From Arthrobacter sp. zg-Y1110 (GTDB lineage: Bacteria; Actinomycetota; Actinomycetes; Actinomycetales; Micrococcaceae): a DNA stretch of 64,000 nt. The notes below the pieces were generated by a model. The model searched no databases, had not been told where the DNA came from, and was given only the letters and a program-made list of their open reading frames with translations. Made by a program: the position numbers and the translations under genes. This document shows positions 20,994-33,154 of this stretch, piece by piece (position 1 is the first letter of the stretch; the number at the start of each line of letters is the position of its first letter). The stretch is taken from assembly GCF_025244865.1 (NCBI RefSeq), contig NZ_CP104272.1, forward strand, positions 2,914,001-2,978,000, in the 5' to 3' direction.

Positions 20994-21095
20994 GGGGCTG
21001 TTTTCCGGGACTGTCCTCGGGGCTGTACTCCGGGGCCGTCTTTCCGGGACTGTTTTCGGGGACCATCTTTCCGGGACCCCTGACCGTCCCGGACC
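20994..21095. repeat. Degenerate 12-15 bp tandem repeat
   Basis: About seven imperfect copies of a unit built on GGGRCTGTNNTCC follow directly after the terminator T-tract. No convincing gene covers it; the region up to 21195 is the leader of the next gene. Confidence 0.55.
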
Positions 21096-21195: not shown

Positions 21196-21915
21196 ATGAG
21201 CACACCAGAGAACACTCCCGAGCCAGGGCGCGAGCCCAACCACCCGACCAATCCTGACGGCACAACCAGCCCCGAGGGTGCAGGCGGCGCTGCGAATCCC
21301 GATGGATTTACTGTTCCCGGAACCGGTCCCGGATCCCGTCCGGAGCCGCAGTACGGTCAGTATGCTCCAGGCGGCCCCTACGACAAGTCCGTCCCCTCCG
21401 GCTACCCCCAGCCCTCCGGCTACGCCCAGCCCTACTCCTATGCACCGCCGGTAAAACCGGCTAAGGGACCTGCCCCGCGCGAGGTCATCATCGGATCGTG
21501 GTTGATCCTTGCTGCCGGCGTGCTGAGCCTCATCAACAACGTCATCACCTCCTTCAGCCTGCCGTCGATCATGACTTCCCAGGAGCAGGAGGCGTTCGCC
21601 GAAACCGGTTTGGACGAAGAAGGCGTGAGCTCCTTCCTCATTTCCTTTGGCATCGTCGTGGCCCTGATCGGCTTTGCAATCTACGTGCTGATCGCGTTCT
21701 TTGTACGGAGGGGAAAAAACTGGGCCCGCATTCTGGGCACCGTGTTTGCCGCCTTCTCCTTAATCGGCATCTTCACCATGCTGGGCGCTTACTTCACCTC
21801 ACCACTAAGCCTGATTTCGCTGGCCTCCAGCCTGCTGGGAATTGCCGGGATCGTGATGCTGTATCTGCGGCCGTCCACCCCGTACTTCCGCAAGGCTCCG
21901 CTGTACCCCTACTGA
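21196..21915 (+). CDS. Pro/Gly-rich N-terminus, four-helix membrane protein
   Basis: 239 residues. The first 90 are low-complexity and rich in Pro, Gly, Ser and Tyr, with QYGQYAPGGPY and repeated YPQPSGYAQPYS-like units, a cytoplasmic tail seen on many actinobacterial membrane proteins. Four membrane segments follow, roughly at residues 96-118, 147-168, 177-198 and 201-220. No enzymatic motif. The ATG at 21196 is preferred over the open frame further upstream because that part is the repeat 20994-21095; AGGCGG lies before it. Function unknown. Confidence 0.7.
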   Translation: MSTPENTPEPGREPNHPTNPDGTTSPEGAGGAANPDGFTVPGTGPGSRPEPQYGQYAPGGPYDKSVPSGYPQPSGYAQPYSYAPPVKPAKGPAPREVIIGSWLILAAGVLSLINNVITSFSLPSIMTSQEQEAFAETGLDEEGVSSFLISFGIVVALIGFAIYVLIAFFVRRGKNWARILGTVFAAFSLIGIFTMLGAYFTSPLSLISLASSLLGIAGIVMLYLRPSTPYFRKAPLYPY

Positions 21916-21947: not shown

Positions 21948-22076
21948 TCTCCCTTGCCGGATCGGGTTTCGCAGTGGAGGGGTCACACGCCGACCGTGCC
22001 CGCGTAGCGTTGTGTTCTCTTCCGGCGGCGAGTTGCTACGCAACGGCCCCGGAGTTCCGCCGTGAAGGGGAGGACC

Positions 22077-24050
22077 ATGGCAGCTCTGCTTCCTAACCCG
22101 CAGCAACAAAAAACCCGTATTCCCCTGCGCAACCGGGCAGCCGATTCTCCGGAGTATGCAGGGCCCAACATCTTCATCCCGGAAGTACCGCTCCATCCCC
22201 CGACGGTATCCGGGGGCTCCCCGGCAGGCCCCGGCAGCGGATCCGGGAAACGGGAGGAACCTACCTCCCCTGAACCCGGCTCACCCTCAGGGATCGGGGA
22301 GAACGGCAGCGGCCACGCCCTCTACGTCTGGCTCCGGGCAGGGTTCCAGGGCGTCATCGCCTGGATTGGCAGCGGCCTTCATGGCACCTTTACGTGGTTG
22401 GGTGCAGGACTGCGGGGTATATCTGCCTGGCTTCGCGTCGGGGCGGGAGGAACCGCCGCCTGGCTCCGCACCGGGGTGCAGGGAACTTACTCCTGGCTCC
22501 GCAGCTTGGCACGCAGCGCATCCAATCATGTCCAAGCCGCGGCGCATGCCACCTCCAATCAAGCCCGGGCGGGAGCCCGGGCTACTTCTGCCGGCGTCCA
22601 TACAGGGGTTGTCCGGGTCCGCGCCGGAGCACACGCCGTTTCGCTGCGGGTTCAAGCCGGGGCCCAGGCAACTTCTGCCGGAGTCCATGCCGGGGCGCAT
22701 GCAACATCCATTCAGGTTCAAGCCGGCGCCCATGCCACCAGCGCTGCGGTCCAGTCCGGGGCCAACCGAGTTGGCGCCGGAGCCCGTGCCGCCTCGGCAT
22801 GGCTCCAAGCCGCGGCCCATGCCGTCTGGAACTGGATACTTTCCGCTGCACACGCCGCATCGGCGGCGATTCAATCCGCGGTGCACTCGACTGTCGCCGG
22901 GGCGCGCGCTGCCGCCCATGCGGTGTCGGTGGCGGCCCGCGCCACGGCCCACGCCGTTTCGATGGCCGCCCGCACCACGGCCCACGCCGTTTCGATGGCC
23001 GCCCGCACCACGGCCCACGCCGTTTCGATGGCCGCCCGCACCACGGCCCACGCCGTTGCCGTCGCAGTCCGCACCATCGGAAATGCCATCTCCGTTGCCG
23101 CCCGGACAACAGCGCACGCCACAGCCGTAGGCGCCCGCGCCGTCGCCGACGCCGTTTCGACGGCCGCCCGCACCACAGCACACGCCACGGCCGTAGGCGC
23201 ACGAACCACAGCACACGTCACGGCCGTAGGCGCCCGCACAACAGGGCACGCCACAGCCGTCGGTGCCCGCGCCGTCGCACACGCCGCCTCGGTGGTAGCC
23301 CACACCGTTGCACATGCCATAGCCGTTGCAGCCCGCACCACAGCGCACGCCACAGCCGTCGGTGCCCGCGCCGTCGCACACGCCACCTCGGTGGTAGCCC
23401 GCACCGTTGCACATGCCATAGCCGTTGCAGCCCGCACCACAGCGCACGCGATAGCCGTGGTGGTGCGGGCCGTACAGCGCCACCTGCCGGCGAACACCGG
23501 CAACCCGGTTCCTGCCATTGCCGCCGCATTCGCGCTGATTTCAGGTGCCGGCCTGCTCAATCTGTGGGGCACCATTACAACCGTTTCGCGGATGCCCATA
23601 CCGGATTCGCTGCCGCCCGCCATTGCCCTCCTCGAGCGGTACGGAGTGACCGGCACCCACTATGCCAGGACGCAGGCGGCGGTAGAGCTCGCCTATGCCC
23701 TGGTGATCCTGGGATCCGCCCTCCTGCTTGCGGTTGCCGTTCGGGACCGGCACCGCTGGGCGCGGATAGCCACCGCGGTCCTTGCGGGCACGGCACTGTT
23801 CTACGCGACGAACGCAGGAACCGGCACCCAGTCTCTCGCGGCAGCCCTGGGCGTCGCAGGAGCCGTGATCACCTTCACCAAGGGAGCAGCTCCGTGGTTC
23901 CGCCCGCGGGTACTCTCGGCTGAGCCGTTCGCGCCGCAACGGCACCAAACAAAGCCGCACCAACACCTAGGAGGCCAGGCGGAACCCCTGCCGTCGGAAC
24001 CGGTCCTAGCGCGCCAGGCGGGCCCGGGCGGCGATCTGCGAAACCTGTGA
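22077..24050 (+). CDS. Undecad-repeat membrane protein, 35 x 11 residues
   Basis: 657 residues. Residues 1-83 are Pro/Gly/Ser-rich. Residues 84-468 are 35 consecutive 11-residue units with no insertion or deletion. Early units read like AWLRTGVQGTY with Trp at position 2; late units read like AVSMAARTTAH or ATAVGARAVAH with Arg at 7 and His at 11. Residues 469-600 hold about four membrane segments (near 480-500, 534-555, 564-579 and 586-600), and a polar tail follows. An 11-residue period fits three turns of an extended alpha helix, as in apolipoproteins, synuclein and group 3 LEA proteins; I infer a long amphipathic, membrane-lying helix. ATG at 22077 with GGGGAGG close before it; GTG at 22062 is an alternative. 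No known family recognised. The 3' end overlaps rex by 45 bases. Confidence 0.85.
   Translation: MAALLPNPQQQKTRIPLRNRAADSPEYAGPNIFIPEVPLHPPTVSGGSPAGPGSGSGKREEPTSPEPGSPSGIGENGSGHALYVWLRAGFQGVIAWIGSGLHGTFTWLGAGLRGISAWLRVGAGGTAAWLRTGVQGTYSWLRSLARSASNHVQAAAHATSNQARAGARATSAGVHTGVVRVRAGAHAVSLRVQAGAQATSAGVHAGAHATSIQVQAGAHATSAAVQSGANRVGAGARAASAWLQAAAHAVWNWILSAAHAASAAIQSAVHSTVAGARAAAHAVSVAARATAHAVSMAARTTAHAVSMAARTTAHAVSMAARTTAHAVAVAVRTIGNAISVAARTTAHATAVGARAVADAVSTAARTTAHATAVGARTTAHVTAVGARTTGHATAVGARAVAHAASVVAHTVAHAIAVAARTTAHATAVGARAVAHATSVVARTVAHAIAVAARTTAHAIAVVVRAVQRHLPANTGNPVPAIAAAFALISGAGLLNLWGTITTVSRMPIPDSLPPAIALLERYGVTGTHYARTQAAVELAYALVILGSALLLAVAVRDRHRWARIATAVLAGTALFYATNAGTGTQSLAAALGVAGAVITFTKGAAPWFRPRVLSAEPFAPQRHQTKPHQHLGGQAEPLPSEPVLARQAGPGGDLRNL
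22326..23480 (+). repeat. 33-bp coding tandem repeat, 35 units
   Basis: 1155 bp without a break in period. Three adjacent copies (22953-23051) are identical in all 33 bases, and a 99-bp higher-order block (23250-23348) is repeated at 23349-23447 with only two differences. Early units have diverged, so the 3' part has expanded most recently. Confidence 0.95.
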
Positions 24051-24764
24051 ACGCTGTGCGTGGTAGGCAAGGATCTGCAGTTCGGTCGCCATGTCCACTT
24101 TGCGGATCTGGACATCTTCGGGCGCCTGCAGCACTACGGGAGCAAAGCTGAGGATGCTGGTAATGCCGGACTCCACGAGGCGGTCGCATAGATCCTGGGC
24201 AACCTCGGCGGGCACCGAAAGCACCGCCATGTTCGCCTCCGTCTTCGCGAGCACTGCTTCAAGCGAGTCCACCGGGCTGATCCTTAGCCAGCCCACCTCC
24301 TGGCCGATAACCATCGGGTCGGCGTCGAACAGTGCCACAACCTCGAAGCCCCTTGAGCCGAACCCGGGATAGCCTGCCAAGGCACGGCCGAGGTTGCCGG
24401 CTCCTACTATGGCTACCCGCCAATTCAATGTCAGGCCAAGCGCGGCGGAAATCTGTCCGCTGAGATACGGGACGTCATATCCAACGCCGCGGGTCCCGTA
24501 GGACCCCAGATAGGACAGGTCCTTGCGCAGCTTGGGCGAGTTAACTCCGGCCGCTTCGGCCAGCTCTTCAGAGGACACACGTTCTATCCCGTCGGCGAGC
24601 ATGACGGACAGCGCCCTCAAGTAGATAGTCAACCGCGCCAGCGACGCCGGCGGTATGTGCCGTCCTGCACCCGCACCGGCCGACGATGGTCGGGCCGCCT
24701 CGCCGCTGTTGGCCGTTCCGCCCTCCAGGGCGGATCGTTCCGACCGGACTTCCTCGGGTGTCAT
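24006..24764 (-). CDS. rex: Redox-sensing transcriptional repressor Rex
   Basis: 252 residues. A polar N-terminal extension of about 38 residues is followed by the winged-helix domain (SLARLTIYLRALSVM and the recognition region VNSPKLRKDLSYLGSYG), a Rossmann domain with AIVGAGNLGRAL, and a C-terminal swapped helix. Rex binds NADH/NAD+ and releases DNA when NADH rises, controlling respiratory genes. ATG overlaps the glutaredoxin stop as TGATG, so the two are one operon; a GTG one codon upstream is possible. In many actinobacteria hemA follows rex; here the next gene is the convergent repeat-protein gene. Confidence 0.95.
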   Translation of the reverse strand: MTPEEVRSERSALEGGTANSGEAARPSSAGAGAGRHIPPASLARLTIYLRALSVMLADGIERVSSEELAEAAGVNSPKLRKDLSYLGSYGTRGVGYDVPYLSGQISAALGLTLNWRVAIVGAGNLGRALAGYPGFGSRGFEVVALFDADPMVIGQEVGWLRISPVDSLEAVLAKTEANMAVLSVPAEVAQDLCDRLVESGITSILSFAPVVLQAPEDVQIRKVDMATELQILAYHAQRSQVSQIAARARLAR

Positions 24765-25015
24765 CACGCCCCCAGCAGACGCCGCAGCCGTGTTTCGTCG
24801 ATTTTCCAGAAGTCCCGTTGGACGCCGTCGATGAACAACACCGGGATCTCCTCGCCGAAGCGGACGGCGAGTTCCGGGTCATCCTCGGCGCTGCGTTCCT
24901 GCCAGGGAATGCCAAGGTCCTCCCCCACGCGCCGGAGCACCAGGCGGGCGTCTTCGCACAAATGGCAGCCCGGTCGGGTAAGGAGGACGACTTCCGGTCC
25001 GACGGATTCACTCAT
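24764..25015 (-). CDS. Glutaredoxin-like protein (DUF836 type)
   Basis: 83 residues, thioredoxin fold. The redox motif is RPGCHLCEDA near the N-terminus (CHLC), and the cis-Pro loop is EIPVLFIDG. Small proteins of this type are predicted thiol-disulfide oxidoreductases; the partner is unknown. It heads the operon with rex, which fits a redox role. The frame is open far upstream, but that lies over the divergent HAD gene. The ATG at 25015 has TATTTT exactly six bases before it. Confidence 0.85.
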   Translation of the reverse strand: MSESVGPEVVLLTRPGCHLCEDARLVLRRVGEDLGIPWQERSAEDDPELAVRFGEEIPVLFIDGVQRDFWKIDETRLRRLLGA

Positions 25016-32433: not shown

Positions 32434-32472
32434 GTCGGTTTTCCTGTTGCCTGCCGGGCCGCCTTCAGGGGA

Positions 32473-32591
32473 GGCTCCGGCGGCGGGGCACCTGCGGGTC
32501 GCCTCCAGGCATGGCTCCGGCGGCGGGCACCTGCGGGTCGGCTTCAGGCATGGCTCCGGCGGCAGGGCACCTGCGGGTCGCCTCCAGGCAT
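32473..32591. repeat. Left 39-40 bp tandem array
   Basis: Three units starting GGCTCCGGCGGC and containing CACCTGCGGGTCG, at 32473, 32513 and 32552; a fourth unit at 32592 runs into the inverted arm. Confidence 0.85.
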
Positions 32592-32593
32592 GT

Positions 32594-32656
32594 CTCCGGC
32601 GGCAACGAAATTCCTCGCTCGCAGAGCTCGCTTGGAATATTAAAGCCGCCTCCGCC
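32594..32656 (+). repeat. Inverted repeat, left arm (63 bp)
   Basis: Matches the reverse complement of 33143-33206 except for one single-base indel and one substitution. Contains the AT-richer core GGAATATTAAAGCCGCC. Confidence 0.9.
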
Positions 32657-32999
32657 ACGCCTTACGGCGGTTAGCACCTGCACGAGCGTCGCCTGCAGAG
32701 CAAGTCAGAGCTACGGGGTCAGTTGGTTCGTAGCTTCCGATGCCCGGGCCGCTGTGCACGGGCACCGGACTCGCTGATGCGTGCAATCACCCGAGGCATA
32801 GGCGCCAGCAGGAATCAGAGCAGCCCGCACAGCCGACAGCGCCGGTGATGCCTGTCGACCGAACGCAAAACCCTGCGGTTTGTGTAAAGACCCTGCGGTT
32901 TGTGCACTTCCCTCCGCCGCGCGGCGCAGGGATTGCCACAAACCGCAGGGAACCCGACAAACCGAAGGGATCCTGGGCGCAGTGCTGGCCTTGCAGCGT

Positions 33000-33154
33000 C
33001 ACCCGTCCGCCCGAAGGGATCCTGACAGAGGCGGCAGCGGCACCCGTCCGCCCGAAGGGATCCTGACAGAGGCGGCAGCGGCACCCGTCCGGCCGCAGGG
33101 CCTGGCCGAGGCGGCAGCGGCACCCGTCCGGCCGAAGGGCCTGGCGGAGGCGGC
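33000..33154. repeat. Right 39-41 bp tandem array
   Basis: Units start CACCCGTCCG at 33000, 33041, 33082 and 33121. The first two are identical over 41 bases; the third is 39 bases and the last merges with the inverted arm. Confidence 0.9.

Follow-up and report, generated by a model that had tools for sequence, protein, structure and literature searches.

The window is a stretch of 64,000 nucleotides from Arthrobacter sp. zg-Y1110 (contig NZ_CP104272.1, positions 2,914,001 to 2,978,000), and all positions given here are counted within it. A reading frame that is open from the ATG at 22077 to the stop at 24050 on the forward strand encodes a protein with a Pro-rich tail, a long array of 11-residue repeats and a membrane domain (Table 1). 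It lies between a paralogue and a convergent gene that, on our reading of its sequence, we take to encode Rex. Letters identical or similar to the Shine-Dalgarno-like sequence before the ATG precede the starts of the other array-bearing genes of the genus.

Table 1. Features of the repeat-protein locus, with positions in the window
Feature	Position	Strand	Basis or remark
Upstream paralogue, with Pro/Tyr-rich tail and 4-TM domain like that of the repeat protein	21196..21915	+	
Shine-Dalgarno-like AAGGGGAGG before the ATG	22065..22073	+	Sequence; same or similar letters in array-bearing orthologues
Repeat-protein gene, 657 aa	22077..24050 (stop included)	+	Orthologues in 11 further genomes of the genus
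N-terminal Pro-rich tail, residues 1–83	22077..22325	+	Start motif common to array-free forms; dN/dS 0.45–0.62
Array, 35 units of 11 residues, residues 84–468	22326..23480	+	Lag identity, helical period, stripe
Trp block, units 1–6	22326..22523	+	Highest hydrophobic moment of the blocks, 0.36
Middle block, units 7–17	22524..22886	+	Lowest moment of the blocks, 0.14
Late block, units 18–35	22887..23480	+	Arg at position 7, His at position 11; moment 0.20
Four-helix membrane domain, residues 469–612	23481..23912	+	Model pLDDT 85.5; family relatives
C-terminal tail, residues 613–657	23913..24047	+	
rex-like gene, convergent	24006..24767	-	Shares 45 bases (24006–24050) with the 3' end of the repeat gene

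Comparison of the window gene with seven orthologues by the Nei-Gojobori method gave dN/dS values within the array of 0.16–0.45 for the Trp block, 0.18–0.35 for the middle block and 0.22–0.43 for the late block, the last of these being rough because the pairing of its units is uncertain. In the same comparisons the N-terminal tail gave 0.45–0.62 and the membrane domain 0.20–0.95, its high values (0.76 and 0.95) being those of the two closest pairs, in which changes are few. Conservation in 11 further genomes, the ribosome-binding site and these ratios rule out a wrong frame or a pseudogene, and it is virtually certain that the repeat ORF is a genuine gene. A promoter scan gave no matches, terminator-like sites were not above chance and Rfam gave no matches. 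Synonymous divergence is uneven along the gene. Against one orthologue (L002) it is approximately 0.10–0.12 in the N-terminal tail and the membrane domain, but 0.25–0.35 in the array, and against this and a further orthologue (L003) the rise extends to the Trp block, where the alignment is good. The flanks may have recombined, or units may have been exchanged with one another; either could account for the difference.

The sequence-only reading had described residues 84–468 as 35 units of 11 residues without a gap. This description holds, with an identity at lag 11 of 0.516, where 2000 composition shuffles average 0.155 and never exceed 0.203; the best other lag from 2 to 21 gives 0.223. Chance or composition as the source of the repeat is ruled out by the shuffles. 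The marker residues of that reading are also present as described, with Trp at position 2 in all six of the first units and in none of the remaining 29; of the last 18 units (18–35), 17 have Arg at position 7 and 15 have His at position 11. The richness in Ala with few charges is likewise as described. The 385 residues include 124 Ala (32%), 31 Arg, 27 His, no Glu and no Lys, and the one Asp is the sole negative charge. Some 33 bp and 99 bp copies within the array are recent, and the 35 units comprise 31 distinct sequences.

An 11-residue period had been expected to form an amphipathic helix, and the geometry of the array agrees with this. The hydrophobicity signal of the window array peaks at 98.5 degrees per residue, which is the period of an 11/3 helix, and the polar residues are segregated. 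Among the 12 arrays found in the genus, the hydrophobicity signal peaks at 98.5–98.75 degrees in 10, those of genomes G013 and G002 peaking at 162 degrees instead, and the polar-residue signal peaks at 98.25–99 degrees in all 12, each periodicity peak being above its own 200 shuffles. When the window array is placed on an 11/3 helix, 91% of its polar residues, mainly Arg and His, lie within 60 degrees of one line. In the eleven other arrays this share is 0.89, 0.88, 0.91, 0.91, 0.80, 0.91, 0.88, 0.90, 0.88, 0.49 (G013) and 0.71 (G002), so that the stripe holds 80–91% of polar residues in 10 of the 12 arrays and is weaker in G002 (71%) and G013 (49%). The stripe persists in a leave-one-out analysis, where the phase is taken from the neighbours and the scored residue itself is excluded. 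The two central bins have polar fractions of 0.85 and 0.77, and from -180 to -90 degrees (1003 positions) the fraction is 0.00 as printed, with 0.14–0.15 in the bins at 105 and 135 degrees on the opposite side; a shuffled control is flat at 0.18–0.24. Array positions are not independent of one another because of duplication, though in the six gapless arrays 132 of the 203 units are distinct.

The angular centres are at -15 degrees for Arg and +15 degrees for His, with Ala beside the stripe and Thr/Val and Gly opposite. In the first block the six Trp are opposite Arg. Each of the 12 arrays has between 0 and 4 acidic residues. The earlier reading of an amphipathic helix can therefore be refined: the polar side is a narrow, nearly acid-free stripe of Arg and His. 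In three other repeat proteins 0.38–0.43 of polar residues lie within 60 degrees, but these controls are 44–49% polar, compared to 20% here, and are not matched in composition. A hendecad coiled coil has a narrow apolar seam and a wide polar surface; the window array is the reverse of this, with a narrow polar stripe. It is very likely that the array forms a helix. A full-length structure model had a pLDDT of 38.9 and was not used. The mean hydrophobic moment of the array, calculated with our own script, is 0.21, and the weak moments in most of the array count against strong insertion by single units.

The array had also been described as joined to a membrane end of four helices. When residues 458–612 were modelled on 43 related sequences, four long helices were obtained with a pLDDT of 85.5, in agreement with the description; a Kyte-Doolittle scan with a threshold of 1.6 marks the first two of the four only. 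The domain is homologous to that of the protein encoded by the upstream paralogue (tblastn), and a profile of long and short forms retrieves both the neighbour genes and the genes of a third form. With the alignment of short forms as the query, 715 relatives were found among 7999 database candidates scored. The best 120 of these 715 include 15 with PF19779 (DUF6264), two with PF23636 (DUF7144) and one with PF07690. At E 0.01, DUF7144 is matched by 14 of 43 related domains, and the membrane domain of the window protein itself has no Pfam match. Judged by these similarities, the membrane end is part of a wider family of short 4-TM proteins (DUF7144/DUF6264/DUF4064-like), in which the homologous domain is found as it is in the array-free orthologues and the upstream neighbour. 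Unlike the repeat protein, these short proteins have short, mostly disordered tails with no 11-residue array. Searches of the family named no function for its members, so the membrane end did not lead to a well-studied family, an outcome that would have counted against the sequence-only reading. Structure comparison with the membrane-domain model gave common helical bundles only, with no clear fold match, and a PDB profile search with the domain gave three matches at E 0.05–0.83. Basic residues flank TM1, fill the loop between TM2 and TM3 and follow TM4. By the positive-inside rule, this placement suggests that both ends of the protein are cytoplasmic, and the array is therefore probably cytoplasmic as well.

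An array is present at this locus in 12 of 29 genomes of the genus, including the window genome, and the other 17 have an array-free gene that is also beside rex. The rex-like gene is found in all 29 and by coordinates is in each the convergent neighbour of the repeat gene or its orthologue. The 12 arrays have 22 to 36 units (35, 33, 31, 36, 35, 33, 33.4, 29.4, 27.4, 29.4, 24.6 and 22.3), which corresponds to 245 to 396 residues. Six are exact multiples of 11 residues; four have a remainder of 4, and two others have remainders of 7 and 3. With remainder steps of 4 and 7 the helical phase is roughly kept. Close pairs differ by whole units, at 22, 11 and 66 residues. The array of database protein P0002 is 22 residues apart from that of the window, and P0003 and the G012 array are 33 residues apart. 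These whole-unit changes among close relatives make it unlikely that the array is a ruler of fixed length.

The array-free genes are of two kinds, a short form in eight genomes, seven of which have a clear start motif, and the third form, with a Pro/Ala-rich tail, in nine. The short form of G004 (L014 592–1932) has an acidic, repeated tail rich in Glu, Pro and Thr in the place of the array; the linker that bears the array elsewhere has in this case gained a quite different repeat. The short form of G014 (L020, L085) has a broken frame, the gene being split over two frames; it may be truly disrupted, or the sequence may contain an error. A tree of the ResB-like and Rex-like proteins places the 12 array genomes apart from the 17 without an array, at a local support of 1.000. 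The presence of the array in one clade only, with array-free orthologues at the same place, suggests that a variable tail was altered in that clade. From these sequence comparisons, an older 4-TM protein seems to have been elaborated there, the array taking the place of a non-array tail.

Searches of 295 genomes of the family, with four first-look candidates scored per genome, gave matches in 61. Those listed outside the genus are in the membrane domain, with the exception of three weak array matches (G289, G061 and G102). Among 396 genomes of the order, scored in the same way and seemingly including no other array genome of the genus, eight besides that of the window match the array weakly (E 2e-6 to 8e-4). 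On translation, these 11 weak matches are short or other-frame repeats, acid-rich coiled coils, a protein of Lys/Glu 11-mers and unrelated proteins. No array of this type was therefore found outside the genus in the 295 family and 396 order genomes at four candidates per genome, and more distant arrays may be missed because so few candidates were scored. Two of the order sequences, L042 (G425) and L043 (G047), have helical stretches of the 11-residue type directly before a TM segment. One is an array of Lys/Glu 11-mers before a single TM, and the other is in a kinase-like membrane protein. The Lys/Glu 11-mer protein, with its C-terminal TM stretch, is presumably DUF3618-like.

In the protein database, the query with the window protein (P0001) found two relatives, P0002 and P0003, among about 8000 candidates scored. 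Both begin inside the array (compare window 22881–24050), and the approximately 270 codons upstream show in-frame conservation across 11 other genomes. It is therefore probable that gene callers cut array genes short, and other proteins of this type may escape notice for that reason. The sequence-only reading knew of no described family with this layout, and none was found above the cut-off in Pfam, NCBIfam, PHROGs, PADLOC or the PDB; nor was a description of the protein found in the open-licence literature of PubMed Central. With PHROGs giving no families at E up to 1, PADLOC giving none, and none of 21 stretches of viral contigs that fit a pattern encoding a relative, a phage or defence origin is rejected.

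Below the cut-off, Pfam profiles matched by the 12 members are ApoLp-III (3 of 12, best E 0.058), Apolipoprotein (3 of 12, best E 0.074), Senescence (1 of 12, E 0.025) and DUF7429 (1 of 12, E 0.73). The window protein scores 13.7 bits with an apolipoprotein-type profile, for which the cut-off is 36.3. At E up to 1 there is no perilipin, synuclein, LEA or antifreeze model among the Pfam matches of the 12 members. A PDB sequence search has an unrelated dehydrogenase first (E 0.049) and synuclein behind it (E 0.30–0.86), and a PDB profile search gave one match, to a designed helical repeat (E 0.27). The only named lipid-binding families seen are thus ApoLp-III, Apolipoprotein and synuclein, all of them below the cut-off.

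The 11-residue lipid-binding helices of apolipoproteins A1, A4 and E, apolipophorin III and alpha-synuclein are nevertheless a likeness, although apolipoprotein and synuclein helices carry many acidic residues and the array nearly none. Another is human perilipin 4. In the study concerned, this protein has 29 repeats of 33 residues, forming long gapless tandem 11-mers in an 11/3 helix; longer constructs bind lipid droplets better; and the helix, called the weakest known by its moment, has a HeliQuest value of 0.257, with 0.30 listed for synuclein and 0.39 for apolipoprotein A-I (PMC5889406). The array is lower still, at a mean of 0.21 and 0.14 in the middle block, a comparison that is approximate only, as our own script is set against HeliQuest. 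Perilipin 4 and the array are alike in their long tandem 11-mers, in an 11/3 helix with polar and apolar faces and in a low moment. Perilipin 4 is charged both positively and negatively, is poor in aromatic residues and lacks a TM anchor, and it coats lipid droplets, whereas the repeat protein has only Arg and His, a Trp block, much Ala and a 4-TM domain, and no sequence relation was found. By analogy, the repeat protein may work as the helices of perilipin 4 or the apolipoproteins do; Pfam and PDB sequence searches do not make it a member of either family. In Pex11 a basic amphipathic helix is joined to TM helices in one chain, as it is here, and the protein prefers and tubulates anionic membranes (PMC6164224). 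The helix of Pex11 is short, however, and belongs to eukaryotic peroxisomes without a repeat array; its sequence relation to the repeat protein was examined by Pfam.

The preferred reading, held at about even confidence, is of a giant amphipathic helix on the cytoplasmic face of the membrane, tethered by the C-terminal anchor. A narrow stripe on an otherwise small and apolar surface is unlikely to exist alone in water, and a tethered helix would most simply lie on the inner leaflet. If continuous, the helix would be about 58 nm long (385 x 0.15 nm) along this leaflet, with the wide face of Ala, Val, Thr and Gly and the Trp block toward the lipid. The Arg/His stripe would lie among the headgroups, where anionic lipid would attract it. 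Single units would bind weakly, and the long row of units together with the anchor would hold the helix to the bilayer. Changes of length by whole units are easier to reconcile with weak binding that adds up than with a ruler of set length. Counted against a membrane helix are a moment below that of perilipin 4, the two arrays with a weak stripe, the 17 of 29 relatives with no array and a topology derived from a rule of thumb. We infer the cellular role from this arrangement, and any single role is at best doubtful; the likely effect would be that an anionic patch of membrane is coated, packed or bent, or is marked for partners of the Pro-rich tail. The line of His could make binding dependent on pH; a basic helix of Spo20 with three His is reported to read membrane charge.

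The same narrow stripe and wide Ala/Gly/Thr/Val surface would also suit close packing of helices. They could form an oligomeric barrel or bundle in which several copies contact one another through their small-residue faces and the Arg/His/Gln stripes face the interior; the result would be a cationic groove or tube that the 4-TM domain keeps at the membrane. The steps of 4, 7 and 11 are those of coiled coils, and the pilot tube of phiX174 protein H has hendecads with guanidinium and amide groups on one line facing the lumen (PMC7354561). Protein H is however a phage protein with many acids and Lys and without a 4-TM anchor, and the array has no PHROGs match. Coiled-coil proteins place only 38–43% of their polar residues within 60 degrees (controls twice as polar and not composition-matched), and helices with high positive charge and no acids would tend to resist packing together in the absence of a bound polyanion, which makes the barrel unlikely. 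A somewhat less likely role is that of a polyanion binder, in which the anchored Arg/His helix keeps DNA, RNA or polyphosphate near the membrane. It draws on the 31 Arg and 27 His against one acid, and on the 0 to 4 acids of each of the 12 arrays, but the charge density is low, with about one Arg and less than one His per 11 residues, and the Trp block resembles a lipid-facing helix more.

A stiff spacer that holds the Pro-rich N-terminus off the membrane toward a partner would account for the tail ahead of the array and the helical period throughout it. This is improbable given lengths of 245 to 396 residues that in close species are 22 or 66 residues apart, and a wide apolar face is not likely to be free in water. 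Lability of length is what would be expected if 33 bp units, themselves contributing little function, arise by slippage and build up in a variable tail, and the fast change in unit number, the recent 33 bp and 99 bp copies and the unrelated tails at the locus, one with acidic repeats, agree with such tolerated expansion. Retention of the stripe in diverged units (132 of 203 distinct in six arrays), dN/dS below 0.5 and the presence of the array in all 12 clade members argue against it, and it is rated slightly below the spacer. A stress-protective or ice-binding helix in the style of LEA or type I antifreeze proteins is barely credible: the Ala-rich 11-residue units and the Thr of the late block recall these, but no such Pfam model is seen in the 12 members at E up to 1, the Thr positions shift between orthologues and the protein is membrane-anchored.

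What is new is a clade-specific, Arg/His-striped 11-mer array on a 4-TM domain; giant 11-mer lipid helices are already known from animals. Extending the preferred reading of a tethered membrane helix, it is possible, but rather doubtful, that a giant membrane-coating 11/3 helix evolved within one genus from a non-repetitive tail, convergent with perilipin 4 and permanently tethered, with an Arg/His stripe that zips electrostatically onto anionic lipid in a pH-dependent manner and whose strength species tune by gain or loss of whole 33 bp units. Array-free orthologues at the same place in neighbouring clades make the origin of a giant amphipathic helix traceable, and the range of 22 to 36 units among close species offers a natural series of lengths for relating the number of repeats to membrane affinity. 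That polar residues stay almost completely segregated while the array changes fast clearly exemplifies selection acting on the geometry of the helix. Repeats of other kinds are found elsewhere in the window, with imperfect 13–14 bp repeats ahead of the upstream paralogue (20994–21078) and two arrays, each of about four copies of 40–41 bp repeats, at 32450–32604 and 32993–33154.
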